In this document: one piece after another, positions 26,421 to 42,736 of the stretch | Position numbering within the stretch: position 1 is the stretch's first letter | Layout: each line of letters starts with the position of its first letter | Source: Lutibacter sp. | GTDB taxonomy: Bacteria > Bacteroidota > Bacteroidia > Flavobacteriales > Flavobacteriaceae | Direction: 5' to 3' | NCBI RefSeq assembly: GCF_016342705.1 | Contig: NZ_JAEINV010000008.1 | Span: 62,001-126,000, forward strand | Length of the DNA: 64,000 nt | Notes under the pieces: generated by a model | Databases searched by the model: none | What the model was told of the DNA's origin: nothing | Seen by the model: the letters and a program-made list of their open reading frames with translations, nothing else | Program-made: the position numbers and the translations under genes

Positions 26421-26457
26421 AAATGAAAATTTTGTATTTTTTTTCAATTAAAATTCA

Positions 26458-26465
26458 CATATTTG
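26458..26465 (+). promoter_or_regulatory. Putative -7 box of the ilv operon upstream of both leaders
   Basis: CATATTTG (one mismatch to TAnnTTTG), 10 nt before the first leader ATG, with TTG 23 nt upstream. Confidence 0.4.
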
Positions 26466-26475
26466 TCAATATATA

Positions 26476-26535
26476 ATGAAAAATTCAATTATAAATATAC
26501 TATTTAATCAAGTCGTTGTAATTAGTTACAGTTAG
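26476..26535 (+). CDS. First branched-chain leader peptide (attenuator 1)
   Basis: 19-residue ORF reading MKNSIINILFNQVVVISYS: four Ile, three consecutive Val and one Leu. It lies upstream of ilvD and is followed 30 nt later by a terminator (26566-26598). A small hairpin (26517-26521 with 26526-26530) falls on the Val-Ile codons and could act as the pause structure. Composition matching the pathway products supports ribosome-mediated attenuation. A convincing antiterminator could not be drawn by eye for this copy. Confidence 0.75.
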   Translation: MKNSIINILFNQVVVISYS

Positions 26536-26565
26536 CGGCTGGATTGTATTATATTTTAAATAATT

Positions 26566-26598
26566 AAAACCTTCCTAATTTTTTAGAAAGGTTTTTTT
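26566..26598 (+). terminator. Terminator of branched-chain attenuator 1
   Basis: aaaaccttcctaa (26566-26578) pairs with ttagaaaggtttt (26583-26595) except one C/A mismatch, loop tttt, followed by a T run to 26598. It has no other gene to serve, since the upstream gene ends at 26420. Confidence 0.8.
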
Positions 26599-26609
26599 AT
26601 AAATATCAA

Positions 26610-26675
26610 ATGAAAATAATAATTAGAAATATCGTCATTTTAAAAGGTGTTAGTATTCGTTTACTAATAAGTTGA
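26610..26675 (+). CDS. Second branched-chain leader peptide (attenuator 2)
   Basis: 21-codon ORF starting MKIIIRNIVILKG and ending VSIRLLIS, with seven Ile, three Leu and two Val. It begins 11 nt after the T run of terminator 1 and has its own terminator (26705-26738). The stop codon (26673-26675) lies inside the 5' arm of a possible antiterminator. With the first leader it forms a tandem attenuator in front of ilvDBNCA. Confidence 0.78.
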   Translation: MKIIIRNIVILKGVSIRLLIS

Positions 26676-26715
26676 TGTGTTTTTAATTGGAATAAAATTT
26701 AAAGCCTGTATCAAC
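26671..26715 (+). promoter_or_regulatory. Antiterminator pairing of branched-chain attenuator 2
   Basis: gttgatgtg (26671-26679) can pair with tgtatcaac (26707-26715): nine pairs, three of them G-U. The 5' arm covers the leader stop codon and the 3' arm covers most of the terminator 5' stem. This is the same design as at 7368-7415. Confidence 0.65.
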
Positions 26716-26738
26716 TAAAAATTGTTACAGGTTTTTTT
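26705..26738 (+). terminator. Terminator of branched-chain attenuator 2
   Basis: cctgtatcaa (26705-26714) pairs with ttgttacagg (26722-26731) with one T/T mismatch, loop of 7, then seven T (26732-26738). Flanking A and T bases can lengthen the stem. Confidence 0.8.
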
Positions 26739-26862
26739 ATTCAATTATCATTGTAAAAAAATATTGCGTAACTATCAGAAAAACAGTTGAATATATGGAA
26801 TAAACAGAAAGTGAATATTGTAATAAAAGCAATAAAAAAATGTAAAAAACAAATACCTAATT

Positions 26863-26870
26863 TAAATTTG
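26863..26870 (+). promoter_or_regulatory. Possible internal -7 box downstream of both attenuators
   Basis: TAAATTTG is a full match to TAnnTTTG, 78 nt before the ilvD ATG and after both terminators. No TTG at -33 spacing. If active it would give basal ilv expression that escapes attenuation. Confidence 0.3.
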
Positions 26871-26948
26871 TAGCTTGTTGTAAAATAAGTAGTGAAAAAT
26901 AAATTATTTTAAATATAATTCAATAGAATTAAAAAAAGAATAAAATAA

Positions 26949-28631
26949 ATGCAATTAAATAAGCACAGTAAAAGGGTAACTCAAGACCCAACTCAACCAG
27001 CAGCACAAGCAATGTTATACGCTGTTGGTTTAACCGATGAGGATATGAAAAAACCTCAGGTAGCAATTGCAAGTACCGGATATGATGGAAATCCTTGTAA
27101 TATGCATTTGAATGGAATCGCTTCAAAAATAAAAACAGAGGTCAATAAATTCAACCAAGTTGGTTTAATATTTAATACAATTGGTGTAAGTGACGGTATT
27201 TCAATGGGAACCTTAGGTATGAATTATTCATTACCTTCTCGTGATGTCATTGCCGATTCTATTGAAATAGTAATGAATGCTCAAAGTTATGATGCATTGG
27301 TTACGGTTGTGGGTTGTGATAAAAATATGCCAGGAGCTATTATGGCTATGTTGCGTTTAAATCGTCCATCATTAATGGTATATGGTGGTACTATTGCGTC
27401 AGGAAATTATAAAGGAAAAAAATTAAATATAGTTTCGGCTTTTGAGGCCTTAGGTCAAAAAATAGCCGGTGATATTACAGAGGAAGAATACAGAGAAATT
27501 ATTAAAAATGCTATTCCGGGAGCAGGTGCTTGTGGAGGTATGTATACGGCAAATACAATGGCTTCTTCAATAGAAGCTTTGGGTTTTGCATTACCTTATA
27601 ATTCATCAATTCCAGCTGAAAATCCTCATAAAGAAAATGAAAGTGAGCGCATTGCTGCAGCTATTAAAAATTTATTAGAGTTAGATTTAAAGCCTTTAGA
27701 TATTATTACTAAAAAATCGCTAGAAAATGCGGTGGCTTTGGTAAATGCTTTAGGTGGTTCAACAAATGCAGTTTTACATTATTTAGCAATTGCACATGCT
27801 GCAGGGATTGAATTTACTTTAGAAGATTTTCAACGTGTAAGTGATAGAACACCTTTAATTGCAGATTTAAAACCGAGTGGTGAATACTTAATGGAAGACG
27901 TTCACGGTGTTGGTGGTACGCCAGCAGTTATGAAATATTTGTTAGAACAAGGGTTTTTGCACGGAGATTGCATGACCGTTACGGGAAAAACATTAGCTGA
28001 AAATTTAGCCAATGTAAAAGCATTGTCTTTTGAAGACGATCAAAAAGTAATTCATACCACTGAAAAAGCGTTAAAATCTTCTGGAAATCTTCAAATTTTA
28101 TATGGAAACTTGGCAACAGGAGGTTCAGTAGCAAAAATTAGTGGAAATGAAGGTAATTTATTCGAAGGAAAAGCGGTTGTTTTCAATAGTGAGCAAGAAG
28201 CCAATGATGGAATTGGAGCTGGAAAAGTTTCAAGAGGTGATGTTGTAGTGATTCGTTATGTAGGTCCAAAAGGAGGTCCGGGAATGCCAGAAATGTTAAA
28301 ACCAACGTCTATGATAATGGGGGCTGGTTTAGGAAAATCGGTTGCCTTAATTACTGATGGACGTTTTTCAGGTGGAACGCACGGATTTGTAGTTGGGCAT
28401 ATTACACCAGAAGCACAAAGTGGCGGTGGAATTGCATTAGTTAAAGATGGAGATACTATTGTAATTGATGCTGTGAATAAGAAAATTAATGTAAAGTTAT
28501 CTGATGCTGAATTAGCTGAAAGAAAGGCGAAATGGGTAGAACCTGCTTTAAAACATACAAAAGGAATACTATACAAATATGCTAAAACCGTTTCTTCTGC
28601 TTCAGAAGGTTGTGTAACGGATAAATTTTAA
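26949..28631 (+). CDS. ilvD: Dihydroxy-acid dehydratase
   Basis: 560 residues. Iron-sulfur cluster Cys residues are visible in [17 protein letters not shown] and [14 protein letters not shown]; the C-terminal signature KGGPGMPEM and [14 protein letters not shown] are present. Dehydrates dihydroxy acids to the 2-keto precursors of valine and isoleucine, in the cytosol. First structural gene after the tandem attenuator; ilvB follows after 4 nt. Confidence 0.96.
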
Positions 28632-28635
28632 TTTT

Positions 28636-30369
28636 ATGGAGACATTAAAAAAAGAAAAGCACGAAGCAACCTCTTCAGAAACTGTTAAAATATCAGGAGC
28701 CGAAGCAGTTATTAAATGTTTATTGGCTGAAGGAGTGGATTTGGCTTACGGATACCCTGGTGGTGCAATTATGCCTGTGTATGATGAGATTTATAAATAT
28801 CAAGATCAATTTCATCATGTGTTAACACGTCATGAACAAGGTGCCATACATGCGGCGCAAGGTTTTGCACGTGTAACAGGAAAAGTGGGGATGGTTTTTG
28901 CTACTTCAGGTCCGGGAGCAACTAATTTAGTAACGGGAATTGCAGATGCACAAATAGATTCTACACCATTAGTTTGTATTACTGGTCAGGTTGGTTCACA
29001 CTTATTAGGTTCTGATGCATTTCAGGAAACAGATATAATTGGTATTTCAACACCAGTAACCAAATGGAATTATCAAATCACCAAAGCTTCAGAAATTCCT
29101 GAAGTAATTGCCAAAGCGTTTTATATTGCAAAATCAGGTCGTCCAGGTCCGGTTTTAATTGATATCACCAAAGATGCGCAATTTGGAGAATTAGATTTCT
29201 CCTATAAAAAATGTGAGAAAGTTAGAAGTTATAAAGCCCTTCCAAAATTAAATATTGAAAAGCTTCAAGAAGCTGCCAATTTAATTAATAATGCAAAAAA
29301 ACCATTTATAGTTTGGGGACAAGGTGTTATTCTTGGTAGAGCTGAGCAAGAGTTTAAAAAATTTATTGAAAAAACAAATATTCCTTCAGCTTGTACAGGG
29401 TTAGGATTGTCTGCATTAGAAACGTCACATCCATTACATGTAGGTATGGTTGGTATGCACGGAAATTATGCACCAAATGTATTAACCAACTCTTGTGATG
29501 TTTTAATTGCTATTGGAATGCGTTTTGATGATCGTGTGACTGGAAATTTAGCAACGTATGCAAAACAAGCCAAAGTAATTCATTTTGAAATTGATCCAGC
29601 GGAAGTTGATAAAAATGTAAAAACGGATGTTGCAGTAATTGCTGATGTGAAAGAAACCTTAGTTGAAATCATGCAATATGTAAATGAAGCAGACCATAAA
29701 GAATGGATGCAAGAATTTGATAAATTATATCAAATTGAAAAAGATGCGGTAATTAACTATCAGTTAAATCCTACAAAAGAAGGATTAACAATGGGTGAAG
29801 TTTTAGGAAGTATAAACAAAGAAACCAACGGTGATGCTGTTATAGTTTCAGATGTTGGCCAGCACCAAATGTTTGCTTGGCGTTATGCTAATTTTAATAA
29901 AACAAGAAGTAATGTAACTTCAGGAGGTTTAGGAACTATGGGTTTTGCATTGCCAGCTGCTATTGGAGCTAAAATGGGAGCGCCTGAAAGAGAAGTTGTT
30001 GCTATTATAGGTGATGGAGGTTATCAAATGACATGTAATGAACTAGGAACTATTCTTCAAACAAAAGCTGCAGTAAAGATTGTGGTTTTAAATAATAGTT
30101 ATTTGGGAATGGTACGTCAATGGCAAGAGTTATTTTTTGATAAGCGTTATGCTTCCACAGAGATGGTAAGTCCAAATTTCGTGAAACTAGCAGAAGCTTA
30201 TGATATTAAGGCTGTTAAGGTTTCAAAACGCGAAGATTTAGCGGGTGCAATTAAAACAATGATAGCTTCAAAAGATGCTTTTTTCTTGGAAGTAGTAATT
30301 GAGCAAGAAGACAATGTATTTCCAATGATTCCAACAGGAGCAAGTGTTTCAGATATAAGATTAAGTTAA
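28636..30369 (+). CDS. ilvB: Acetolactate synthase, large (catalytic) subunit
   Basis: 577 residues. ThDP enzyme: activating Glu in LTRHEQGAIHAAQG, the central FAD/regulatory domain, and the ThDP-binding GDGGYQMTCNELGTI with the following NN. Condenses pyruvate with pyruvate or 2-ketobutyrate. About 20 extra N-terminal residues (METLKKEKHEATSSE) precede the conserved start ISGAEAVIKCL. The start is kept because it is 4 nt after ilvD and no later Met is close to the conserved region. Confidence 0.96.
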   Translation: METLKKEKHEATSSETVKISGAEAVIKCLLAEGVDLAYGYPGGAIMPVYDEIYKYQDQFHHVLTRHEQGAIHAAQGFARVTGKVGMVFATSGPGATNLVTGIADAQIDSTPLVCITGQVGSHLLGSDAFQETDIIGISTPVTKWNYQITKASEIPEVIAKAFYIAKSGRPGPVLIDITKDAQFGELDFSYKKCEKVRSYKALPKLNIEKLQEAANLINNAKKPFIVWGQGVILGRAEQEFKKFIEKTNIPSACTGLGLSALETSHPLHVGMVGMHGNYAPNVLTNSCDVLIAIGMRFDDRVTGNLATYAKQAKVIHFEIDPAEVDKNVKTDVAVIADVKETLVEIMQYVNEADHKEWMQEFDKLYQIEKDAVINYQLNPTKEGLTMGEVLGSINKETNGDAVIVSDVGQHQMFAWRYANFNKTRSNVTSGGLGTMGFALPAAIGAKMGAPEREVVAIIGDGGYQMTCNELGTILQTKAAVKIVVLNNSYLGMVRQWQELFFDKRYASTEMVSPNFVKLAEAYDIKAVKVSKREDLAGAIKTMIASKDAFFLEVVIEQEDNVFPMIPTGASVSDIRLS

Positions 30370-30370
30370 G

Positions 30371-30892
30371 ATGGAAGAAATTAAAAATTTTACATTTTCA
30401 GTATATACTGAAAACAACGTAGGAATATTAAATCGCCTTTCGGCAATATTTTTAAAACGTCATATTAATATAGAAAGTATGACTGTTTCAAAATCGGAAA
30501 TTGATAACGTACATCGTTTTACTTTTGTAGTAAATATTTCAGAAATTCAAGCTAGAAAAGTGGTTGGGCAATTAGAAAAGCAAATAGAAGTTATAGGTGC
30601 TTTTTATCATACGGAAGATGAAATAATTTACAATGAAACAGCATTGTTTAAAATTTCTTCCGAGCATTTATATGATGAAGAAATTCAAGAAAAAATGAAG
30701 TTTAGAAGAGCGCATATTATTGCAATAACAGAGCGTTATTTTGTAATTGAAGCATCTGGATTAAAAGATGATATTGATAATATGTACGAAAAATTAAAGC
30801 CGTATGGTTTGTTGCAATTTGTGCGTTCAGGGCGCATTGCAATTACAAAGCCTAAAATGGCAATATCAGAATTATTAAAAGAATTTAACTAA
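30371..30892 (+). CDS. ilvN: Acetolactate synthase, small (regulatory) subunit
   Basis: 173 residues. N-terminal ACT domain [19 protein letters not shown] with NIESM, the valine-binding site of the family, then a second C-terminal domain ending [14 protein letters not shown]. Stabilises the large subunit and confers feedback inhibition. It begins one base after the ilvB stop. Confidence 0.95.
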
Positions 30893-30912
30893 AAAGAATA
30901 AAGAATAAAAAA

Positions 30913-32388
30913 ATGGCAAATTATTTTAACACACTTCCATTACGTTTACAATTAGAGCAATTGGGTCAATGCGAATTTATGGATAGATCTGAATTTAATG
31001 ATGGAGTAGCAGCATTAAAAGGAAAGAAAATTGTAATTATTGGTTGTGGAGCTCAAGGGTTAAACCAAGGTTTAAATATGAGAGACTCTGGGTTAGATGT
31101 TTCTTATACTTTAAGAGCTGAAGCTATTGCTCAAAAAAGACAATCGTTTTTAAACGCTTCTGAAAACAATTTTAAAGTTGGAACCTATGAAGAAATGATT
31201 CCAACAGCAGATTTGTTAATTAATTTAACTCCAGATAAACAGCATACTGCTGTTGTAACTGCAGTTATGCCTTTAATGAAAAAAGGATCAACACTTTCTT
31301 ATTCTCACGGATTCAATATTGTTGAAGAAGGAATGCAAGTTAGAAAAGATATTACTGTAATTATGGTAGCGCCAAAGTCGCCAGGCTCTGAGGTAAGAGA
31401 AGAATTTAAAAGAGGATTTGGTGTGCCAACATTAATTGCTGTGCATCCAGAAAATGATCCTGAAGAAAAAGGATGGGATTATGCAAAAGCATATGCGGTT
31501 GGAACAGGAGGTCATACTGCAGGAGTGTTACGATCTTCATTTGTTGCTGAGGTAAAATCAGATTTAATGGGTGAGCAAACAATTCTTTGTGGATTGTTAC
31601 AAACAGGATCTATTTTATGTTTCGATAAAATGGTTGCTGAAGGTGTAGATGCTGGTTATGCTTCAAAATTAATTCAGTACGGATGGGAAACAGTAACAGA
31701 AGCCTTAAAATATGGTGGAATTACCAATATGATGGATCGTTTATCAAATCCAGCAAAAATTGCAGCTTTTAAAGTTTCAGAAGAATTAAAAGATATTATG
31801 CGTCCGTTATTCCAAAAACATATGGATGATATTATTTCTGGTCATTTTTCTAAAACTATGATGGAAGATTGGGCAAATGATGATGTTAATTTATTAACTT
31901 GGAGAGCAGCAACAGGAGAAACTGCTTTTGAAAAAACACCAGCTGCTGATGTGAAAATTTCTGAACAAGAATATTTTGACAATGGCGTATTAATGGTGGC
32001 AATGGTAAAAGCAGGTGTTGAATTAGCTTTTGAAGCTATGACAGAATCTGGAATTATTGAAGAATCTGCATATTACGAGTCTTTACATGAAACGCCATTA
32101 ATTGCAAACACCATTGCACGTAAAAAATTATTTGAAATGAACCGCGTAATTTCTGATACTGCAGAATATGGTTGTTATTTATTTGACCACGCTTGTAAAC
32201 CATTAATTGCTGATTATGTTAAAAATGCACCAAGTAATTTAATTGGAAAACCGTTTAATAATGGCGCAAATGGGGTTGATAATAAAGAATTAATTGAAGT
32301 AAACGCAGCAATTAGAAATCATCCGGTAGAAGATATTGGAGCGTATTTAAGAGAATCAATGACTGCAATGACTAAAATTGTATCATAA
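30913..32388 (+). CDS. ilvC: Ketol-acid reductoisomerase, class II
   Basis: 491 residues, the long class II form (E. coli type) with a duplicated knotted C-terminal domain. NADPH-binding [20 protein letters not shown], then [17 protein letters not shown]. Converts acetolactate and acetohydroxybutyrate to the dihydroxy acids. Located 20 nt after ilvN and 23 nt before ilvA in the same operon. Confidence 0.96.
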
Positions 32389-32411
32389 AAATAAAAACTT
32401 ATAAAAAGCGA

Positions 32412-33674
32412 ATGGATGTAACTTCTCAAAATAGTATTTCATTAGAGAAAATTTACAAAGCGCAACAGAATATCAAAGGAGTTGTTTTGGCAACTCCTTT
32501 GGTTTTTATGAAAAACTTCTCTGAACGCTATCAAGCTAATATTTATTTTAAAAGAGAAGATTTACAGGTAGTTCGTTCCTATAAAATTAGAGGTGCTTAC
32601 AATAAAATTCAAGGGTTAACAGAAGCGCAATTAGCCAATGGAATTGTTTGTGCAAGTGCAGGAAATCACGCGCAAGGTGTGGCGTATGCTTGTCAGAAAT
32701 TACAAGTAAAAGGTGTAATTTTTATGCCGTTTACTACACCGCATCAAAAAATTGATCAGGTGAAAATGTTTGGTGGAGATTTTATTGAAATCAAATTATT
32801 TGGAGATAGTTTTGATGACAGTCAAAAAGCAGCAGATGAATTTTGCAAAGCCCAAAAAAGCACTTTTGTACATCCTTTTGATGATGTTGATGTAATTGCT
32901 GGACAAGGAACTGTTGGATTAGAAATTTTAAATGATGCTGAAGTTCCTATTGATTATTTGTTTTTGCCTGTTGGTGGTGGAGGTTTGGCTTCTGGAGTAG
33001 GAAGTGTATTTAAAGCATTAAGTCCTTCAACAAAAATTATTGGAGTAGAACCTAAAGGTGCACCATCATTAACAACTTCATTAAAAAATGGGGAAAATAC
33101 CACATTAACAGAAATTGAAAAGTTTGTTGATGGAGCTGCAGTTAAACGCATGGGTGACATCACTTTTGAGTTTTGTAAAGAAGTATTATACGAAGTAGAT
33201 TTAATTGATGAAGGATTAATTTGTTCTACCATTTTAAAGGTGTATAATGAAAATGCATTGGTTGTTGAACCGGCCGGTGCCTTATCAATAGCAGCTTTAG
33301 AAAATCATAAAGAACAGATTAAAGGAAAAAATGTAGTTTGTATTGTGAGCGGAGGTAATAACGATATTACCCGAATGGAAGAAATGAAAGAACGTGCCTT
33401 GTTTTATGAAGGTTTAAAACATTATTTTATCATTAAATTTCCGCAAAGAGCAGGCGCTTTAAAAGAATTTGTGGTAGATGTTTTAGGTCCGAATGATGAT
33501 ATTGCTTATTTTGAATATACCAAAAAGCATAACAGAGATAAAGGTCCGGCGGTTGTTGGAATTGAATTAGATTCAAAAGAAGATTTTGAGCCTTTAGTTA
33601 ATAGAATGAAGGAAAAAGGATTTTTAGGAGAGTACTTAAATGAAAAACCAGAGCTCTTTCAATTTTTAATTTAG
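32412..33674 (+). CDS. ilvA: Threonine dehydratase (biosynthetic type)
   Basis: 420 residues. PLP Lys in RSYKIRGAYNKI, SAGNHAQGVAYAC, and the phosphate-binding VGGGGLASG. A C-terminal ACT-like domain (about 325-420, starting HYFIIKFPQRAGALKEF) suggests isoleucine feedback. It has one such domain rather than the two of E. coli IlvA. Supplies 2-ketobutyrate for isoleucine; last gene of the ilv operon. Confidence 0.95.
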   Translation: MDVTSQNSISLEKIYKAQQNIKGVVLATPLVFMKNFSERYQANIYFKREDLQVVRSYKIRGAYNKIQGLTEAQLANGIVCASAGNHAQGVAYACQKLQVKGVIFMPFTTPHQKIDQVKMFGGDFIEIKLFGDSFDDSQKAADEFCKAQKSTFVHPFDDVDVIAGQGTVGLEILNDAEVPIDYLFLPVGGGGLASGVGSVFKALSPSTKIIGVEPKGAPSLTTSLKNGENTTLTEIEKFVDGAAVKRMGDITFEFCKEVLYEVDLIDEGLICSTILKVYNENALVVEPAGALSIAALENHKEQIKGKNVVCIVSGGNNDITRMEEMKERALFYEGLKHYFIIKFPQRAGALKEFVVDVLGPNDDIAYFEYTKKHNRDKGPAVVGIELDSKEDFEPLVNRMKEKGFLGEYLNEKPELFQFLI

Positions 33675-33688
33675 TAATTAAAGTGTTT

Positions 33689-33713
33689 TTAACAATCTGA
33701 TTTGTTAATTTTT
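33689..33713 (+). terminator. Probable terminator of the ilv operon
   Basis: ttaacaa (33689-33695), loop tctgat, ttgttaa (33702-33708), then five T. The stem is A/T only except for one pair, so strength is uncertain. Confidence 0.5.
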
Positions 33714-33789
33714 AATAGTGTAAATTGTGATTTTGTTAATTATTAAACAAAAATTAAATTGTATTACAAATTTATGTAATATTGTACCA

Positions 33790-33864
33790 ATGAAAATATA
33801 TAAATTAAATATAACTGTTTTAACTCCCCCGCCTACTTTTAGGATGCGCCGCATTGTGCGTTAA
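33790..33864 (+). CDS. Pro/Arg leader peptide of the joint arginine-proline operon
   Basis: 24-residue ORF: MKIYKLNITVLT, then PPPTF, then RMRRIVR and TAA. The three Pro codons are ccc, ccg, cct (33826-33834) and the four Arg codons agg, cgc, cgc, cgt (33841-33861). The GC-rich stretch stands out in AT-rich surroundings. The operon that follows makes both arginine and proline (argG, argC, argD, argF', argB, argE, argH with proA, proB, proC), so the two amino acids sensed would be exactly the two produced. No other leader-like ORF with ATG lies between it and the GNAT gene. Confidence 0.8.
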   Translation: MKIYKLNITVLTPPPTFRMRRIVR

Positions 33865-33889
33865 TTTTACGTATCCAAAAAAAACAGTT
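33813..33889 (+). promoter_or_regulatory. Nested RNA stems across the Pro/Arg leader
   Basis: Outer stem: aactgtttt (33813-33821) with aaaacagtt (33881-33889), nine pairs. Inner stem: ggatgcg (33842-33848) with cgtatcc (33870-33876), seven pairs with one G-U. Ribosomes at the Pro codons or at the Arg codons would disrupt different stems. How this connects to a terminator is not clear. Confidence 0.5.
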
Positions 33890-33960
33890 TATTAATTTCA
33901 TTTTCAATTTTATTTTGTATCATTCTTTTAACATACTATTTAATATCAATTTTATAATTT

Positions 33961-33985
33961 TTTCAATAATTTTTATTGAAATTTT
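33961..33985 (+). terminator. Possible A/T-rich terminator hairpin in the arg/pro leader region
   Basis: tttcaataa (33961-33969), loop ttt, ttattgaaa (33973-33981), followed by tttt. A perfect 9-bp stem, but with little G-C content. Confidence 0.35.
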
Positions 33986-33997
33986 ATATCATTTTTT

Positions 33998-34025
33998 GCG
34001 TCCAATTTGGGCGTGTTATTTTTTT
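33998..34025 (+). terminator. Candidate attenuator terminator ahead of the arg/pro operon
   Basis: gcgtcca (33998-34004) pairs with tgggcgt (34008-34014), two G-U pairs, 3-nt loop, followed by gttattttttt. It is about 70 nt before the GNAT gene. It lies far (134 nt) from the leader stop and I could not draw an antiterminator for it. A further small hairpin, tacgg/ccgta, follows at 34028-34042. Confidence 0.4.
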
Positions 34026-34093
34026 AAGTACGGTTTTTCCGTAAGCTCAGTAATTCATAAAAATTTTAATTTTCAATTTAATAAATTAAGCCA

Positions 34094-34711
34094 ATGAAGG
34101 TTGTAATAGCTAACGAATCGCATGTGAAATACGCTCAATTAATTTGTGAGACTATAGAAGAGTCTGCAAAAGTGAGAGGAACAGGTATAGCACAACGAAC
34201 GCCAGAATATATTACTAAAAAAATAGTGAATGGAAATGCAGTAATTGCTATTCACGAAGATCAATTTGCTGGTTTTTGCTACATAGAATTATGGGATAAT
34301 TTAAAGTTTGTAGTAAACTCAGGGTTGATAGTGCATCCTGATTATAGAAATCAAGGTTTAGCAAAAAAAATAAAACAGAAAATATTAGAACATTCAAAAG
34401 AAAAATATCCAGAAGCTAAAATATTTGGTATTACAACCGGTTTGGCCGTTATGAAAATTAACTACGAGTTGGGTTATCAGCCAGTTACTTTTTCTGAGTT
34501 AACAACCGATGAAGCTTTTTGGAATGGATGTCAAACATGTAAAAATTACGATATTTTAATGCGTACTAACAGAAAAATGTGTTTGTGTACTGGAATGTTG
34601 TATGATCCTAAACATGAAAAAAATATTAAAAAGCACGAATACAATTCAAAAGTGTTAAGCCGATTAAAAAAAATAAAACAAGCATTATTCCTTAAAAAAG
34701 AAAAAAAATAA
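34094..34711 (+). CDS. GNAT-family N-acyltransferase at the head of the arginine operon
   Basis: 205 residues. GNAT acyl-CoA binding signature around LIVHPDYRNQGLAKKIKQKI. The C-terminal part has Cys residues (GCQTCKNYDIL, KMCLCTGMLYDP) and a basic tail. Being first in an operon that otherwise lacks an argA or argJ gene, it is the natural candidate for the glutamate N-acyltransferase that starts the pathway. The acyl group may be acetyl or succinyl; the Ser90 of the transcarbamylase below favours succinyl. Activity is inferred from context. argG follows after 5 nt. Confidence 0.8.
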   Translation: MKVVIANESHVKYAQLICETIEESAKVRGTGIAQRTPEYITKKIVNGNAVIAIHEDQFAGFCYIELWDNLKFVVNSGLIVHPDYRNQGLAKKIKQKILEHSKEKYPEAKIFGITTGLAVMKINYELGYQPVTFSELTTDEAFWNGCQTCKNYDILMRTNRKMCLCTGMLYDPKHEKNIKKHEYNSKVLSRLKKIKQALFLKKEKK

Positions 34712-34716
34712 AGAGT

Positions 34717-35904
34717 ATGGAAAAAGTTGTAGTTGCATATAGTGGAGGTTTAGATACATCATATTGTGTAAAATATTTACAAAATGAATTAAACCTTGAA
34801 GTACACAGTGTTTTGGTAAATACCGGAGGTTTTTCAACCGAAGAATTAAAAGTGGTTGAAGCGAAAGCTTATGAAATGGGTGTAAAATCTCATACCAATT
34901 GTAATATTTTAGAAACATATTATCAAAAAGCCATTAGGTTTATGGTGTATGGAAATGTGTTAAAAAATAATACCTATCCATTATCAGTAAGTGCTGAACG
35001 TGTTTTTCAAGCTATTGAAGTAGTTGAATACGCAAAAAAGATAGATGCGAAATATATTGCACACGGAAGTACTGGAGCTGGAAATGACCAGGTTCGTTTT
35101 GATATGATTTTTCAAACTTTGGCACCAACTATTGAAATAATAACTCCAATTCGTGATTTAAAATTATCACGTCAGGAAGAAATTGAATACTTGAAAAAAC
35201 ATGGTGTAGATTATCCTTGGTCAAAAGCAAAATATTCTATTAATAAAGGAATTTGGGGAACCAGCGTTGGCGGTGTAGAAACATTAACATCAAACCAAGG
35301 GTTACCAGAAAGTGCGTATCCAAGTCAGTTAGAAAAAACAGAACCAACCAATATTAAATTGCATTTTAAAAAGGGTGAATTAGTTGGGTTGAATGATGAG
35401 TTTGATACATCTGTTAATACCATTTTAAAATTAGAAGCTATAGCATCAAAGTATGCTATTGGGCGTGATATTCACGTGGGAGATACTATTGTTGGTATTA
35501 AAGGAAGAGTTGGTTTTGAAGCTGCAGCAGCGGTTGTAACTATAAAAGCACATCATTTATTAGAAAAACATGTCCTTTCAAAATGGCAACAAAATTTGAA
35601 AGAACAATTTGCAAGTTGGTATGGAATGTTATTTCATGACGGACAATATTTTGAGCCAGTGATGCGAAATATTGAAGCTTTTCTAGAAGATTCTCAAAAG
35701 ACAGTTACCGGTGAAGTTTTCTTAACATTAAAGCCTTATCATTTTAGTTTAAATGGTATTGAATCGGATCACGATTTAATGAAATCTAAATTTGGTGAAT
35801 ATGGAGAAACCAATAAAGCATGGTCTGCAGATGATGCCAAAGGATTTATTAAAATTTTAGGAACACCTAATAAAATATTTCACAGTGTAAATTCAGAATT
35901 ATGA
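34717..35904 (+). CDS. argG: Argininosuccinate synthase
   Basis: 395 residues. ATP-binding VVAYSGGLDTSYCVKYL at the N-terminus (PP-loop SGGxDTS), with the later GSTGAGNDQVRF and YSINKGIWGTSVGG. Joins citrulline and aspartate. Part of a tightly packed operon: its stop overlaps the argC start (ATGA, 35901-35904). Confidence 0.96.
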   Translation: MEKVVVAYSGGLDTSYCVKYLQNELNLEVHSVLVNTGGFSTEELKVVEAKAYEMGVKSHTNCNILETYYQKAIRFMVYGNVLKNNTYPLSVSAERVFQAIEVVEYAKKIDAKYIAHGSTGAGNDQVRFDMIFQTLAPTIEIITPIRDLKLSRQEEIEYLKKHGVDYPWSKAKYSINKGIWGTSVGGVETLTSNQGLPESAYPSQLEKTEPTNIKLHFKKGELVGLNDEFDTSVNTILKLEAIASKYAIGRDIHVGDTIVGIKGRVGFEAAAAVVTIKAHHLLEKHVLSKWQQNLKEQFASWYGMLFHDGQYFEPVMRNIEAFLEDSQKTVTGEVFLTLKPYHFSLNGIESDHDLMKSKFGEYGETNKAWSADDAKGFIKILGTPNKIFHSVNSEL

Positions 35905-36878
35905 TTAAAGCAGGAATAATTGGTGGAGCAGGATATACAGCAGGTGAGTTAGTTAGATTATTAATACATCATGCACATATTGAAATAGATTTTGTGTATA
36001 GCACCTCGAATGCTGGAAATTATATTTATGATGTACATCAGGATTTATTGGGAGCATTAGATTTAAAATTTACTGACCAAGTAAATAACAATGTAGATGT
36101 GTTGTTTTTGTGTTTAGGACACGGAAATTCAAAAAAGTTTTTAGAACAACATCAATTTTCTGAAGGAACGAAGATTATAGATTTAAGCAACGATTTTAGA
36201 TTGATAAAAGACGCTGTTTTTCAAGGAAACGAATATGTATATGGTTTGCCAGAATTACAACAACAAAAAATTGAAAAAGCGAATTATATAGCCAATCCAG
36301 GTTGCTTTGCAACAGCCATTCAATTGGCATTATTACCATTAGCAAAAGCTAATTTATTAAATAATTCGGTCCATATAAATGCAACCACAGGTTCTACAGG
36401 AGCAGGCGTTTCACCAAGTGAAACCACGCATTTTAGTTGGAGAGATAATAATTTTTCAGTGTATAAAGCATTTACACACCAACATTTAGGTGAAATTTCT
36501 GAAAGTTTAGGATTGTTGCAACCAAATTTTTCCGAAGAACTATTTTTCATTCCAAATAGAGGGAATTTTAGTAGGGGGATTTTTGCATCTATCTACTTAA
36601 GTTTTGATGAAGCTATAGAAAAAGCCTATGAATTATTTGAAGATTTTTATAAAGACGCCGTTTTTACAAAAGTGTCAAAAAAACCAATTCATTTAAAGCA
36701 AGTAGTGAATACAAACAATTGTTTTATTCATTTAGAAAAATATAAAAACACGTTATTAATTACATCGGCAATTGATAATTTGTTAAAGGGAGCGTCGGGA
36801 CAAGCCATTCAAAATATGAATTTAATGTTTAAATTAAATCAAAAAGAAGGATTGCAGTTAAAAGCCAATTTATTTTAA
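35901..36878 (+). CDS. argC: N-acyl-gamma-glutamyl-phosphate reductase
   Basis: 325 residues. NADP-binding GIIGGAGYTAGELVRLL; active-site Cys in ANPGCFATAIQLAL; HQHLGEI and IPNRGNFSRGI near the substrate. Reduces N-acyl-glutamyl phosphate to the semialdehyde. Family name says acetyl; here the acyl group may be succinyl. proC follows after 11 nt. Confidence 0.95.
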   Translation: MIKAGIIGGAGYTAGELVRLLIHHAHIEIDFVYSTSNAGNYIYDVHQDLLGALDLKFTDQVNNNVDVLFLCLGHGNSKKFLEQHQFSEGTKIIDLSNDFRLIKDAVFQGNEYVYGLPELQQQKIEKANYIANPGCFATAIQLALLPLAKANLLNNSVHINATTGSTGAGVSPSETTHFSWRDNNFSVYKAFTHQHLGEISESLGLLQPNFSEELFFIPNRGNFSRGIFASIYLSFDEAIEKAYELFEDFYKDAVFTKVSKKPIHLKQVVNTNNCFIHLEKYKNTLLITSAIDNLLKGASGQAIQNMNLMFKLNQKEGLQLKANLF

Positions 36879-36889
36879 AAAAATACAAT

Positions 36890-37684
36890 ATGAAAATAGC
36901 CATTATTGGAGTAGGAAATTTAGGGTATTCAATAGCCATTGGAATTCTAACTCAAAAGAATTTTAAATTTAAAAATTTGTATTTAACCAAGCGTGATACG
37001 GAATCTTTAAGTTCTTGGGAAAAATTGCCCAATGTTAAAATTTCAACCGACAATAAAAAAGCTGTTCGTTATTCAGATATTGTTATAATTGCCGTGCAAC
37101 CAAAACAATTACATACCGTTTTAGAAGAAATAAAAGAGGTGGTAAATCCTAAAAAACATACGATTATTTCAGTAGTTACAGGTAGAAAAACGGATGAAAT
37201 TGAAAGTGTATTAGGAAGTGACGTTCCAATTATTAGAAGTATGCCAAATACGGCAATTTCTGTTGGGCAATCTATGACTTGTTTAAGCGCAAATGAAAGA
37301 GGAAAAGAAAATATAGAATTTGCCAAAACAATTTTCAATTCCTTAGGGAAAACCATGTGTATTGAAGAAAAGTTAATGCAAGCTGCCACTGTTATTTGTG
37401 CCAGCGGAATTGCTTTTTGGATGCGTTTAATTCGCGCCACAACCCAAGGAGCTATTCAACTAGGATTCGATTCAAAAGAAGCGCAAGAATTATCTATGCA
37501 AACCTGTTTGGGTGCTGCTAGTTTGTTAATTCATTCAGGAAGTCATCCTGAGCAAGAAATTGATAAAGTTACAACGCCAAGTGGTTGTACAATTGAAGGT
37601 TTAAATGAAATGGAGCACCAAGGATTAAGTTCTTCTTTAATAAAAGGTTTGGTAACTTCTTTCGAAAAAATTAATCAGATTTAA
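36890..37684 (+). CDS. proC: Pyrroline-5-carboxylate reductase
   Basis: 264 residues. NAD(P)-binding IIGVGNLGYSIAIGIL, VVTGRKTDEIESVLG, SMPNTAISVGQSMTC, and C-terminal VTTPSGCTIEGLNEME. Last step of proline synthesis. Its position between argC and argD shows that the proline and arginine genes form one transcription unit. Confidence 0.95.
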   Translation: MKIAIIGVGNLGYSIAIGILTQKNFKFKNLYLTKRDTESLSSWEKLPNVKISTDNKKAVRYSDIVIIAVQPKQLHTVLEEIKEVVNPKKHTIISVVTGRKTDEIESVLGSDVPIIRSMPNTAISVGQSMTCLSANERGKENIEFAKTIFNSLGKTMCIEEKLMQAATVICASGIAFWMRLIRATTQGAIQLGFDSKEAQELSMQTCLGAASLLIHSGSHPEQEIDKVTTPSGCTIEGLNEMEHQGLSSSLIKGLVTSFEKINQI

Positions 37685-37694
37685 CATTTTTATT

Positions 37695-38825
37695 ATGAAA
37701 TTATTTGATGTTTATCCGTTATACAATGTAACTCCAGTAAAAGCTGAAGGATGTTATGTTTGGGATGAGAATAATATAAAATATTTAGATTTATATGGTG
37801 GTCACGGCGTAATTTCTGTGGGACATACGCATCCAAAATATGTTGCTGATTTAACCAATCAACTTCAAAAAATAGGATTTTATTCCAATTCAGTTCAAAT
37901 GCCTTTACAGGTGGAGTTGGCCGAAAAATTAGGAAAACTTTCAGGTAGCGAAAATTACAATTTGTTTTTATGTAATTCTGGTGCGGAAGCTAATGAAAAT
38001 GCCTTAAAATTAGCTTCATTTATTACTGGAAAAAGTAGGGTGCTAGCCTTTACAAATTCCTTTCACGGAAGAACATCGGCAGCTGTGGCTGTAACTGATA
38101 ATAAAAGCATTAACGCGCCTATTAATTTACAACAAAAAGTGACTTTTTTACCGTTGAATGATATTGAATTGGTTATTCATGAAATAGGTAAAGGCGATGT
38201 TGCCGCTGTAATTATTGAAGGAATTCAAGGAGTTGGAGGTTTGGACGAAGGAACTACTGAGTTTTTTCAAGAGGTTCAAAAGGTGTGTAACAAAAATTGT
38301 GTATTGCTAATTTTAGATGAAATACAATCGGGTTATGGAAGAAGCGGAAAATTCTTTGCATTTCAATACCATCATATTCAACCAGATATTATAACAACAG
38401 CTAAGGGAATGGCAAATGGGTTTCCAATTGGAGGTGTTTTAATTTCGGATGTTTTTAAAGCTAAATATGGTAGTTTAGGAACTACTTTTGGTGGAAATCA
38501 TTTAGCATGTACTGCTGCAATTTCAGTATTAGATATTATTGAAGAAGAAAAGTTAATTGCCAATGTAAATGAGGTTTCAAACTATTTTATGGAGGAAATT
38601 AAGCAGATTCCTGAAGTGAAAAAAGTGAAAGGAAGAGGTTTAATGTTGGGTGTGGAATTTGATTTTGAAGTAGGTGAACTTCGAAAAAAATTAATTTTTG
38701 ATAAACATATTTTTACTGGAGGTTCTAACAATAAAAATTTGTTAAGAATTTTACCTCCTTTAACAATTACGAAAGCTCAAATAGATGAATTTATAAAAGC
38801 TTTGAAAGAAGTATTATCACAATGA
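37695..38825 (+). CDS. argD: N-acylornithine aminotransferase
   Basis: 376 residues, class III aminotransferase. LFLCNSGAEANENALKLA, LDEIQSGYGRSGKFFA and PLP Lys in TTAKGMANGFPIGGV. Transfers an amino group from glutamate to the N-acyl-glutamate semialdehyde. An ornithine aminotransferase role linking to proline is possible but less likely given the arg context. Its stop overlaps the proA start by 4 nt. Confidence 0.92.
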   Translation: MKLFDVYPLYNVTPVKAEGCYVWDENNIKYLDLYGGHGVISVGHTHPKYVADLTNQLQKIGFYSNSVQMPLQVELAEKLGKLSGSENYNLFLCNSGAEANENALKLASFITGKSRVLAFTNSFHGRTSAAVAVTDNKSINAPINLQQKVTFLPLNDIELVIHEIGKGDVAAVIIEGIQGVGGLDEGTTEFFQEVQKVCNKNCVLLILDEIQSGYGRSGKFFAFQYHHIQPDIITTAKGMANGFPIGGVLISDVFKAKYGSLGTTFGGNHLACTAAISVLDIIEEEKLIANVNEVSNYFMEEIKQIPEVKKVKGRGLMLGVEFDFEVGELRKKLIFDKHIFTGGSNNKNLLRILPPLTITKAQIDEFIKALKEVLSQ

Positions 38826-40015
38826 AAGGATTAACTTCAAACCAAAAAAATAGTGTTTTAACATCAATGGCCGAATTAATTGCATCGGAAAGAGGTGCAA
38901 TATTGAAAGCAAATAAAATGGATGTTGAAAATTATTCAGGTGAAGATATTGCCATGTACGATCGACTAAAAGTTGATGATGCCAAGGTTGATGGAATGAT
39001 TGTTTCATTACAACAATTAATTGCAGCTATTGATCCAGTAGGAAAAGAATTATACAATTTCACCCACGAAAATGGATTGAAAATGACCAATAAAACAGCG
39101 CCTTTCGGAACTGTTTTAATCATTTATGAATCTAGACCAGATGTCACAGTTGAAGCCGGAGGAATTGCGTTTAAATCGGGGAATAAAATTTTGCTAAAAG
39201 GCGGAAAAGAGTCGCTCAATTCAAATTTAAAAATTGTTGAATTGTGGCATAAAGCATTGGCTGAAAATAATATTTCAACAAATTGGGTAGAATATTTAAA
39301 TTATAACAGAACTGAAACACAGGCTTTTTTAGAACATCCAACTCAAAAAGTAGATTTAATTGTGCCACGTGGTGGTGAAAAATTAATTGCCTTTGTTAAA
39401 CAATATGCAACTTGCCCAGTAATTGTTAGCGGTAGAGGAAATAATTTTGTGTATGTAGATACGGAAGCCGATGTGGAAATGGCTTTATCAGTAATTTTAA
39501 ATGCAAAAGCATCAAAAATATCTGCGTGCAATGCGTTGGATAAAGTGTTGGTAAATACAAATTTAATAAATAAAGAATCCTTTGTTAAAACATTGATTCA
39601 TAAACTGCTAAAGCATAAAGTTGAAATTTTGGGTGATGATGAAATCTCTAAATTTGAAAATATTGCTGCATTTGAAGATGAAGCTATTTGGTATGAAGAG
39701 TTTTTAGATTATAAAATTGTGTTAGGAAGTGTTAAAAACATTGATGAAGCTATTTTAAAAATAAATATTTACGGAGGAGGACATTCAGCAGTGATATTAA
39801 CCGAAAATAAGGAAACGGCTCAATATTTTATGGAATTGGTGGATTCTGCTGCTGTCTATCAAAATGCATCCACACGTTTTACAGACGGCGGTCAGTTTGG
39901 TTTAGGTGGAGAATTAGCAATAAGCACCGATAAATTGCATCATAGAGGACCAATGGGATTACAGCATTTAGTTACTAACAAATGGTACGTGTACGGAAAT
40001 GGGCAAATTAGGTAA
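38822..40015 (+). CDS. proA: Glutamate-5-semialdehyde dehydrogenase (gamma-glutamyl phosphate reductase)
   Basis: 397 residues. ALDH-fold enzyme: PFGTVLIIYESRPDVTVEAG, GGKESLNSN, and the catalytic Cys region KASKISACNALDKVL. Reduces glutamyl-5-phosphate in proline synthesis. The C-terminal FTDGGQFGLGGELAISTDKLHHRGPMG matches ProA. It overlaps argD by 4 nt and proB by 17 nt, indicating translational coupling. Confidence 0.95.
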   Translation: MKGLTSNQKNSVLTSMAELIASERGAILKANKMDVENYSGEDIAMYDRLKVDDAKVDGMIVSLQQLIAAIDPVGKELYNFTHENGLKMTNKTAPFGTVLIIYESRPDVTVEAGGIAFKSGNKILLKGGKESLNSNLKIVELWHKALAENNISTNWVEYLNYNRTETQAFLEHPTQKVDLIVPRGGEKLIAFVKQYATCPVIVSGRGNNFVYVDTEADVEMALSVILNAKASKISACNALDKVLVNTNLINKESFVKTLIHKLLKHKVEILGDDEISKFENIAAFEDEAIWYEEFLDYKIVLGSVKNIDEAILKINIYGGGHSAVILTENKETAQYFMELVDSAAVYQNASTRFTDGGQFGLGGELAISTDKLHHRGPMGLQHLVTNKWYVYGNGQIR

Positions 40016-40775
40016 AAAGAGAATTTTATTAAAAATTGGATCTAATGTATTAACAAAAGAGACCAATCATATTTCTCGTGGAAAAATTGAAGATATTGCC
40101 TGTCAAATAGCAGATTTAAGAGACGATTATGAATTTGTAATTGTAACTTCAGGCGCTATTGCAGTAGCAAAACAATTTGTTCAGTTAGAGAGTAATGGAA
40201 AGGAAATTAATGTAAAACAAGCATTAGCATCCATTGGTCAGCCACATTTAATGCGTATTTATCAAGAAAGTTTTAGAGAACTTGGTTTATTAACTTCTCA
40301 GTGTTTATTGTCGTATTCCGATTTCAAAAAAGAAGAATCTAGAACCAACATTAAAAACACCATAAATGTGTTGGTTGAAAATAGTTATATTCCAATCATT
40401 AATGAAAATGATACGGTTGCCACGGATGAAATTAAATTTGGGGATAACGATAAATTATCGGCATTAACAGCAGCACTTTTAAATGTAGATTTGTTAATTA
40501 TTGCCACCAATACTAATGGAATTTACACCAAAGCCTCCATTGATGCTGATAGCGTAAAAACAATTAAAGAAACTAATAATATTCAGTTGTTAAGAGACCA
40601 AATTCAAGCATCGGTTTCCTTGCACGGAACAGGTGGAATGTCAACAAAAATTGAAGCGTCAGAAATTGCACAAAATGCAAATATTGAAACGTGGATAGTA
40701 AATGGATTAAAAGATAATTTTGTTGTGAACGCAATGAAAAACAAAAGTGAATTCACAAAAATAACAGTAAAGTAA
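39999..40775 (+). CDS. proB: Glutamate 5-kinase, short form
   Basis: 258 residues. Amino-acid-kinase fold: ILLKIGSNVLTKE, VIVTSGAIAVAKQ, ENDTVATDEIKFGDNDKLSAL and GTGGMSTKIEASEIA. It lacks the C-terminal PUA domain of E. coli ProB (367 residues). The ATG lies 17 nt inside proA. Two separate proteins are encoded, not a fused P5C synthase. Phosphorylates glutamate for ProA. Confidence 0.94.
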   Translation: MGKLGKKRILLKIGSNVLTKETNHISRGKIEDIACQIADLRDDYEFVIVTSGAIAVAKQFVQLESNGKEINVKQALASIGQPHLMRIYQESFRELGLLTSQCLLSYSDFKKEESRTNIKNTINVLVENSYIPIINENDTVATDEIKFGDNDKLSALTAALLNVDLLIIATNTNGIYTKASIDADSVKTIKETNNIQLLRDQIQASVSLHGTGGMSTKIEASEIAQNANIETWIVNGLKDNFVVNAMKNKSEFTKITVK

Positions 40776-40776
40776 C

Positions 40777-41724
40777 ATGCAACATTATACCAAAATAAAC
40801 GAGTTAGATAGCTTGCAAAAAACAGTAAAAGAAGCTATTGAATTAAAAAAAAGTGAATTAAAATATAAATTTCTTGGTGAAGGAAAAACCATTTGTTTAT
40901 TGTTTTTTAATAATAGTTTACGTACCCGTTTAAGTACGCAAAAGGCAGCTCAAAATTTAGGTTTGAATACTGTTGTAATGAATTTTGGTAGTGAAGGTTG
41001 GCAGCTAGAGTTTGAAGATGGTGTTGTAATGGATCAGGATAAATCTGAACACGTTATTGAAGCTGCACAAGTAGTTGCGCAATATTGCGATATTGTGGCA
41101 ATTAGAGCTTTTGCCTCTTTAACTGATAAAGAAAAGGACAGTGCAGAAATTGTAATTGAAAGCTTTAAAAAATATGCTAGAATTCCAGTTGTAAATATGG
41201 AAAGCGCTACAGGGCATCCGTTACAAGCATTGGCAGATGCAATTACCATGGAAGAATATAAAGTTTCTCATAAACCTAAGGTTGTATTGTCTTGGGCGCC
41301 ACATCCAAAAGCCTTGCCGCATGCCGTTGCCAATTCTTTTGTTGAAATGATGCAATTGCAAGATGCAGATTTTGTGATTACGCATCCAGAAGGTTATGAG
41401 TTAGATCCAAAAATCACAAAGAATTCTAAAATAGAATACAATCAAAATAAAGCGTTTGAAAATGCTGATTTTGTGTATGTGAAGAACTGGAGTAACTTTA
41501 AAAATTATGGGAAAGTAGTAAATAAAGATGCACATTGGATGGTAACTGCTGAGAAAATGAAGTTGACAAATAATGGGAAGTTTATGCACTGTTTGCCTGT
41601 TAGAAGAAACGTAATTGTTGCTGATGAAGTAATTGATTCGGAAAATTCAATTGTAATTCAGCAAGCAAATAACAGAACCTATTCAGCACAAATTGTATTG
41701 AAGAAAATATTGGAGAATATATAG
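40777..41724 (+). CDS. N-acyl-ornithine carbamoyltransferase (probably N-succinyl type)
   Basis: 315 residues. Carbamoyl-phosphate site FFNNSLRTRLSTQKAA (SxRT), WAPHPKALPHAVANSF, HPEGYELDPK and the C-terminal MHCLPVRRN. This matches the Bacteroides/Xanthomonas acyl-ornithine transcarbamylases, not ordinary ArgF. At position 90, within VVMDQDKSEH, the residue is Ser; I recall Glu here in the N-acetyl enzyme and Pro in the N-succinyl enzyme, with Ser substitution shifting specificity to succinyl. It is followed by a repeat-containing gap before argB. Confidence 0.9.
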   Translation: MQHYTKINELDSLQKTVKEAIELKKSELKYKFLGEGKTICLLFFNNSLRTRLSTQKAAQNLGLNTVVMNFGSEGWQLEFEDGVVMDQDKSEHVIEAAQVVAQYCDIVAIRAFASLTDKEKDSAEIVIESFKKYARIPVVNMESATGHPLQALADAITMEEYKVSHKPKVVLSWAPHPKALPHAVANSFVEMMQLQDADFVITHPEGYELDPKITKNSKIEYNQNKAFENADFVYVKNWSNFKNYGKVVNKDAHWMVTAEKMKLTNNGKFMHCLPVRRNVIVADEVIDSENSIVIQQANNRTYSAQIVLKKILENI

Positions 41725-41744
41725 TTTAAATACAACTAAAAGTC

Positions 41745-41824
41745 GTCAACCTGAACTTGTTTCAGGTTTTCATACGAATTTGTACTTTAGTTGATAAGAT
41801 TCTGAAATAAGTTCAGAATGACGA
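41745..41824. repeat. Palindromic intergenic repeat, copy 1
   Basis: Starts CGTCAACCTGAACTTG and ends ATAAGTTCAGAATGACG. CGTCA/TGACG ends form the outer inverted repeat, with two inner CTGAA...TTCAG palindromes. Lies between the transcarbamylase gene and argB. Such elements recur in flavobacterial genomes. Confidence 0.8.
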
Positions 41825-41839
41825 TTTAAATTTAAAACA

Positions 41840-42622: not shown

Positions 42623-42628
42623 AAGAAA

Positions 42629-42691
42629 CGTCATGCTGAAGTTGATTCAGCATCGCATGCGATGAAACCCTGAAGCAAGTTCAGGGTGACG
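42629..42691. repeat. Palindromic intergenic repeat, copy 2
   Basis: Starts CGTCATGCTGAAGTTG and ends AAGCAAGTTCAGGGTGACG, with an inner GCATGC-centred palindrome (catcgcatgcgatg). Same end sequences as copies 1 and 3; lies between argB and argE. Confidence 0.8.
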
Positions 42692-42736
42692 AAAATAATA
42701 ATAATTGAATAAAAATTCAAATTTTAATATTCAAAA

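Follow-up and report, generated by a model that had tools for sequence, protein, structure and literature searches.

A candidate arginine/proline leader peptide before an arginine-proline operon of Lutibacter sp., with counterparts in other Flavobacteriaceae

The window, as we call the whole stretch of 64,000 nucleotides analyzed here (contig C34 of the genome coded G000), contains a short ORF that ends in a cluster of arginine codons preceded by prolines and that is followed by genes for the synthesis of both amino acids. The question raised by this locus is whether the ORF encodes a leader peptide through which the operon responds to its end products and, if so, whether one or both of them are sensed. 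The features discussed below are listed first, with hp0, hp1 and hp2 denoting hairpins and R1 the module formed by hp1 and hp2.

33777 to 33784, + strand: TAATATTG, -7 box-like; a similar sequence lies just 5' of the leader ATG in both genus layouts (alignment)
33790 to 33864, + strand: leader peptide ORF of 24 amino acids, MKIYKLNITVLTPPPTFRMRRIVR; unique in the window, with leaders at the same place in the genus and the family
33813 to 33889, + strand: predicted helix A, pairing 33813-33821 with 33881-33889 around the latter half of the leader and helix B
Within 33813 to 33889, + strand: helix B, 33842-33848 with 33870-33876, predicted by folding
33826 to 33834, + strand: proline codons 13-15; two-leader members of the genus have an aligned CCC here, and PPP is confined to G000, G035 and G020
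33841 to 33861, + strand: arginine-rich end RMRRIVR, codons 18-24, overlapping the terminator-like hairpin 33843-33862
33962 to 33980, + strand: hp0 hairpin TTCAATAATTTTTATTGAA; by eye, several two-leader relatives have a hairpin here
33997 to 34025, + strand: hp1 hairpin and a run of seven T, candidate intrinsic terminator of the window clade (pattern match)
34029 to 34043, + strand: degenerate hp2, TACGG TTTTT CCGTA; in relatives a covarying stem with AGGTGNGTCC, the window genome having no R1 match
34094 to 43795, + strand: presumed regulated operon of ten genes, gnat-argG-argC-proC-argD-proA-proB-argF'-argB-argE'

The leader ORF, its operon and its relatives

Translation of positions 33790-33864 (+ strand) bears out the preliminary description of a 24-residue ORF with PPP and four arginines in its last seven residues. 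The prolines are encoded by CCC CCG CCT and the arginines, at codons 18, 20, 21 and 24, by AGG CGC CGC CGT. The claim that chance was an unlikely source also stands, since among the 533 ATG ORFs of 12-40 amino acids in the 64-kb window this one alone contains PPP and it alone has at least four arginines in the last seven residues, and no + strand ORF with such an end appeared when the intergenic region was simulated 3000 times as a first-order Markov chain. A Pfam scan of the peptide returned no family. Just upstream, TAATATTG resembles TAnnTTTG, the -7 box consensus of Bacteroidetes. A palindrome-like sequence, TTGTTAATTATTAAACAA (33733-33750), lies upstream of this presumed leader promoter, and its pattern matches 10 of the 34 genomes of the genus.

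The operon indeed combines arginine genes with proC, proA and proB, as had been claimed, and the leader precedes it as described, although not directly, with 229 nt between the leader stop codon and the GNAT start codon. In this operon argF' is an N-acetylornithine carbamoyltransferase and argE' an ArgE/DapE-like deacylase; argG, argD and the deacylase find their best matches in the corresponding NCBIfam families, at scores under the cut-offs. The only NCBIfam match of the first gene, GNAT (34094-34711), reaches 29 bits against a cut-off of 154, and judged from its place the gene may encode N-acetylglutamate synthase. The 5' neighbor of the leader is a branched-chain group, ilvD, ilvB, ilvN, ilvC and ilvA, as read from the translations. 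Upstream of ilvD (26476-26600 and 26704-26741) an Ile-/Val-rich ORF, MKNSIINILFNQVVVISYS, is followed by what appear by eye to be two hairpins with T runs, and that region is likely a branched-chain attenuator.

A search for GNAT found it in 65 of 100 genomes, the window's own among them, and the upstream regions of 64 were read, G023, split over contigs, being excluded. An ATG ORF with at least three arginines occupies one of two leader places in 33 of the 34 genomes of the genus, and the remaining one, G017, has by eye a homologous leader ORF with a GTG start. Two layouts can be distinguished. The short layout has one leader of some 21 codons, e.g., MKNYNLNTTIVRRFARRPLRA, whose end lies approximately 80 nt upstream of GNAT; the long one has a leader of 24-25 codons about 230-305 nt upstream, often followed by a second ORF with the end RPLRA or similar. 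The short leader is like the long leader in its N-terminal half and like the second ORF in its C-terminal half. The window has the long layout, but its second ORF has decayed, as has hp2 further downstream. In a comparison of L024 with L010, both of the genus, the single layout resembles a fusion of the N-terminal half of the first leader with the C-terminal half of the second ORF. The layouts would then differ by the presence or absence of a module of approximately 160 nt in the 5' region; both are found in several genera.

In the family-wide search 270 of 395 genomes and 149 of 203 genera had GNAT. Gene tables were obtained for 221 operons, four from the window's genus and 217 from other genera, and outside the genus an arginine-rich leader, either single or one of two in tandem, could be called before 203 of the 217. 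The automatic calls demanded at least three arginines, and the arginine count is thus not independent evidence. Four of the calls (G214, G113, G169 and G119) were overridden by hand, and further leaders, some with a GTG or TTG start, were entered by hand. Operons with no leader or proC call were dropped (G247, G119, G149, G229, G347, G388, G358, G378, G282 and G396) or stand outside the analysis table (G483, G485, G492 and G528), and the genus members G020, G024, G032 and G035 were handled separately, outside the table of 203 leaders. First leaders have on average 4.8 arginines in the counted stretch (at least three in 115 of 117) and single leaders 3.6 when the hp1 codons are excluded (at least three in 77 of 86), both figures partly owing to the calling rule. 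In the family, typical C-termini are FVPTRRRP, APVRPFSPRRRP and KIRCTIPGLPVRSRRRF, each followed by the stop codon.

Two features do count as independent evidence, where the ORF lies and in which frame its arginine codons stand. In 53 single leaders, a set selected for ending in proline, CG occupies codon positions 1-2 in frame 167 times, versus 63 and 56 times in the other frames, and arginine occurs 184 times versus 106 expected from a base composition that itself includes the arginine and proline codons. For CC the corresponding counts are 115 in frame versus 70 and 95. Between similar first leaders, 667 of 1581 differences fall at codon position 3, a modest excess. Codon choice is unusual too, as had been noted for ccc and cgc: in 138 first-leader DNAs from the window genome and related genomes CGC makes up 389 of 660 arginine codons and CCC 148 of 191 proline codons, whereas in 15 CDSs of the window the shares are 9 of 126 and 3 of 152.

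Sensing of arginine by the leader is well supported. The preliminary description had named loss of the ORF from a retained operon as evidence against its leader proposal; the proposal survived this comparison, in which genus and family alike were found to keep arginine-rich leaders together with the operon. It had also proposed a search for PPP and arginine clusters in related genomes, and of these the arginine clusters recur, before the 203 of 217 operons, and PPP does not, being present in 3 of 34 genus genomes. A scan with a degenerate DNA pattern for PPP..FRMRR gave apparent chance matches across many phyla, and those loci were not used. In the outgroup family f15 (L174 and L176) there is a leader-like ORF of a different, longer type (MKQVNIYTPSERPVLTIGIGRFSPLDRFRREPNRQ in L174), and in the arginine operon there no pro genes were found.

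Proline as a possible second signal

The case for proline comes from operons that differ in their proline genes. Among the 80 operons first tabulated, 34 have proC, proA and proB, 37 proC only, two none, and seven are others. When the hp1 proline is excluded, proline codons are present in the leaders of 181 of 185 proC-containing operons versus 8 of 18 operons lacking proC. Where we speak of operons without a pro gene, this means no tblastn match of the window ProC, ProA or ProB at E<=1e-8 in the fetched stretch, which for G205 ends at 6 kb. On a FastTree phylogeny of argG and GNAT from 202 operons, midpoint-rooted and with parsimony states, nine losses of leader proline were reconstructed, five of them on proC-less branches that represent 6.8% of the length at risk (P ~1.4e-4). 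Two proC-less events, in G339 and in genus g3, had suggested the hypothesis; without them three of seven losses fall on proC-less branches (P ~0.009). Nine supported independent pairs include two to five concordant and no discordant ones, and the sign test, of low power here, is not significant.

The same contrast can be seen within genera. G542 with proC has the leader MKISYNKIRTNSPILRLRNRRR (RTNSPILRLRNRRR), versus MNTLYSKIRTNSTKLRFRNRRR (RTNSTKLRFRNRRR) in G543, where no pro genes were found; similarly, MYIYPVISMKEIILPILRFRLR in G174 with proC stands against MYIYTVISTTQIIKSSLRLRQSRR in G339, and MITLKNKIRSTVPSTFVRLRRRA in G515 with proC against MISNKNKIRFTAFSSFIRLQRRC in G193 and G540, again with no pro genes found in the latter members. 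The rule has exceptions in both directions. Leader proline is kept in seven operons for which no pro gene was found (G211, G248, G315, G372, G375, G384 and G471), two of which, G248 and G471, belong to the genera of G542/G543 and G174/G339, and it is missing from four with proC (G181, G311, G461 and G487). It is also kept in G202, whose operon has proB only, and, outside the counts, in G149, which has proA and proB without proC (leader MKTLKYIRCSTPGLSARNRRSF). In G074 and G085 of an outgroup family no operon pro genes were found, and an arginine-containing leader-like ORF has four prolines.

A dependence of leader proline on proA/proB within proC-containing operons was considered and rejected for want of a consistent effect: single leaders average 2.0 prolines with proA/proB versus 2.57 without (p 0.04), and first leaders 1.85 versus 1.55 (p 0.22), both before the four overrides.

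The results on proline thus point both ways, and therefore, while arginine sensing is rated high, joint sensing of arginine and proline by the leader is about evenly balanced or somewhat better. Of the dual specificity originally claimed, the arginine part has held, being conserved with the operon, and the proline part has statistical backing from the 181 of 185 versus 8 of 18, limited by the seven pro-less operons that keep proline and by pair tests that are not significant.

The alternative that survives best is a leader in which only the arginine codons are the sensor, with the prolines, slow to be incorporated, sharpening the stall at arginine or the C-rich codons serving RNA structure. 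We regard it as possible though doubtful, a good deal short of an even chance. In the 53 single leaders arginine is in frame and in excess, and proline, with 115 occurrences versus 122 expected from the base composition (proline and arginine codons included), is at expectation; moreover, the last proline of single leaders sits in the hp1 stem, the proline codon of first leaders is mostly CCC, and the seven operons just mentioned keep proline with no pro genes found. Against this, proline has been lost mainly where proC is gone, and adjacent prolines are avoided (PP in 0 of 203 leaders versus 17.6 expected), which would be odd if slow proline were intended. Moreover, with the last codon excepted, the single leaders use the four proline codons about evenly (33, 31, 28 and 23), which speaks for the residue and not the bases, so that CCC kept for structure alone does not hold in general.

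Downstream RNA structures and the possible switch

Between the genes flanking the leader there are two terminator-like sites, versus 0.1 expected in shuffles: 33997-34025, i.e., hp1 with its T run, and 33843-33862, which falls inside the arginine codons of the leader. Outside the window clade hp1 overlaps the end and the stop codon of an arginine ORF. It follows the last arginine codons there and in most genera reads CGCCCGTAAGGGTG, with the stop codon TAA in the loop. About 15 nt 3' of it lies hp2, whose stem varies and whose loop has the conserved motif AGGTGNGTCC. The hp2 stem shows covariation in 63 sequences selected by motif, with 45 cells changed on both sides (17.3 in shuffles, none of 500 reaching 45) and five pairs changed on both sides (3.3 in shuffles, 28 of 500 reaching five); sliding the partner breaks the signal. 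Because the motif served to choose the rows of alignment A2, its invariance there and in the R1 covariance model built on A2 is partly by construction.

The R1 model matches 128 of 199 family genomes, 123 of them with one hit at E<=0.01; of the five second matches four are weak and one (G153) lies beside a second argG copy. In the fetched loci R1 is located 5' of GNAT or, in G149, 5' of another ORF followed by argG. In that genome (L287 from 594), which has the R1 module, the ORF beginning MSTEIKMNTELEM replaces GNAT before argG. Among the 20 listed of the 71 genomes without an R1 match, 18 lack GNAT, the exceptions being the window genome and G109. Rfam release 15 gave no match at gathering score in window positions 26300-34200 and none at E<=1 in seven relatives; three sub-threshold matches, to hepatitis A virus, snoRNA and trypanosome rRNA families, were taken as chance. 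The hp1-hp2 pair is an apparently new, conserved RNA module without an Rfam match. A literature search, conducted mostly outside subscription journals, likewise returned no title or abstract describing an arginine/proline leader or an hp1-hp2 module.

An ordinary intrinsic terminator at hp2 was rejected: at least six T in eight within 20 nt 3' of hp2 are found in 8 of 80 single-leader genomes (shuffles 8%) and 9 of 104 two-leader genomes (shuffles 4%), that is, at about the chance level. T tracts are found elsewhere. After the first leader of two-leader genomes at least nine T in ten occur in 48%, versus 11% in base shuffles (n=134), and in two-leader genomes of other genera helices A and B have as their counterpart a structure whose tail is rich in T. 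Pairing between early leader codons and the sequence before the T tract is better than between mismatched partners, with relatedness not fully removed from this comparison. Pairing of the GGG in the 3' arm of hp1 with hp2 as an antiterminator was tried and rejected as a general rule, with a mean probability of 0.07 and values above 0.5 in 5 of 107 genomes. Thermodynamic folding of single strands found no antiterminator in the window leader, hp1 staying folded in the whole leader and two truncations (G000, G035 and G032).

Ribosome-mediated attenuation is the simplest reading, and on balance we think it probable that the leader peptide controls the arginine/proline operon through the ribosome that translates it. 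When charged tRNA-Arg is scarce, translation of the leader would slow at the arginine codons, and scarcity of charged tRNA-Pro would probably slow it at the nearby proline codons. The stalled ribosome would alter the folding of the RNA downstream and keep the leader from the terminating form, and RNA polymerase would then pass the block before the operon, for which 33997-34025 is the most likely candidate terminator in the window. With both amino acids plentiful the leader would be completed and transcription would stop.

The leader might instead act via Rho, translation or mRNA decay, with the R1 module as the effector. This we consider rather unlikely, even though hp2, with its covarying stem, conserved loop and usually no T tract, is unlike a standard terminator, and even though there is a precedent in orf34 of speF, where according to the available text pausing at arginine codons decides mRNA decay (PMC6386406). 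It sits poorly with the window clade, where a terminator-like site with seven T accompanies a degenerate hp2, and with the T-rich tracts after the first leader in two-leader genomes.

Stalling at PPP in an EF-P-dependent way, which had been offered as a possible additional input, is not supported as a general feature. PPP was found in 3 of 34 genus genomes (G000, G035 and G020), with PSP in the close relative G032 and PP in G028; outside the genus, the 203 leaders without PP compare with a mean of 17.6 in shuffled peptides, never below 5 in 1000. Conserved adjacent prolines, the mark of a polyproline leader, are thus not found, and the prolines are spaced from one another, contrary to what a design for polyproline stalling would call for, the window PPP being a lineage feature. 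As a separate input confined to the window clade, an EF-P-dependent PPP stall seems quite improbable: the motif is shared by G000 and G035 and also by the more distant G020, with synonymous changes nearby and one added codon, but the PSP of G032 and the lack of PP in all of the 203 leaders tell against it. Least credible by far is a chance ORF across a structured untranslated region, for although structures overlap the ORF and its C- and G-rich codons could be their by-product, it is unique in the window, such an end is absent from all simulations, the arginine codons are in frame across 53 single leaders and 203 of 217 operons have a leader in the corresponding position.

Relation to known leader systems

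The varying operon content amounts to a natural experiment, in which the same leader family stands before operons with and without proline genes, and the sensed amino acid can be read from evolution and tested by a few codon swaps. We tentatively propose, at slightly less than an even chance, a family-wide arginine and proline leader system in which proline codons track the pro genes of the operon, a new hp1/hp2 (AGGTGNGTCC) module replaces the standard terminator, and a tandem version exists in many genera. If true, arginine and proline would join the multi-amino-acid leaders, and a concrete mechanism would be at hand for how a large family of environmental bacteria controls its arginine synthesis; the analysis also exposes a conserved RNA module that has no match in Rfam release 15.

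Attenuators of the trp, his, ilv and thr type in Gammaproteobacteria consist of a short ORF with end-product codons before the cognate operon, and sensing of more than one amino acid, as by ilvL and thrL, is an established principle. The window leader is like them in holding end-product codons before its cognate biosynthetic operon, and a conserved short ORF of this kind, by which attenuators are recognized, was indeed found. It is unlike them in that arginine and, putatively, proline are sensed and in that no terminator/antiterminator exchange was found. To our knowledge, tandem leaders and an R1-like module are absent from the classic design, and we know of no arginine codons in MgtL, a leader treated below.

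The transcriptome of Flavobacterium psychrophilum, another member of the Flavobacteriaceae, is reported to give strong indications that leader peptides attenuate amino-acid operons, and the 5' elements named as conserved in the family include those of pheA and hisG; the main text of that report names no arginine or proline leader (PMC9723704). The available parts of two further papers contain no arginine leader of the window kind (PMC7815308, PMC8632094). MgtL of Salmonella, as far as the available text goes, is a leader peptide with proline codons that, unlike the window leader, belongs to a Mg2+-transporter gene and works through Rho (PMC6386406). Rare arginine codons in the leader peptide rbfL of Staphylococcus aureus sense arginine limitation, the accessible part of the paper describing translation control of the biofilm regulator rbf and no arginine operon, unlike the window leader (PMC13009471). 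In speF orf34/speFL of Salmonella two consecutive arginine codons sense arginine by ribosome pausing, and the available text reports no proline sensing; orf34 has a Pfam family (DUF2618, PF10940) and, unlike the window leader, controls polyamine synthesis via Rho, translation and RNase G (PMC6386406), the two having in common that each is a short upstream ORF with arginine codons.
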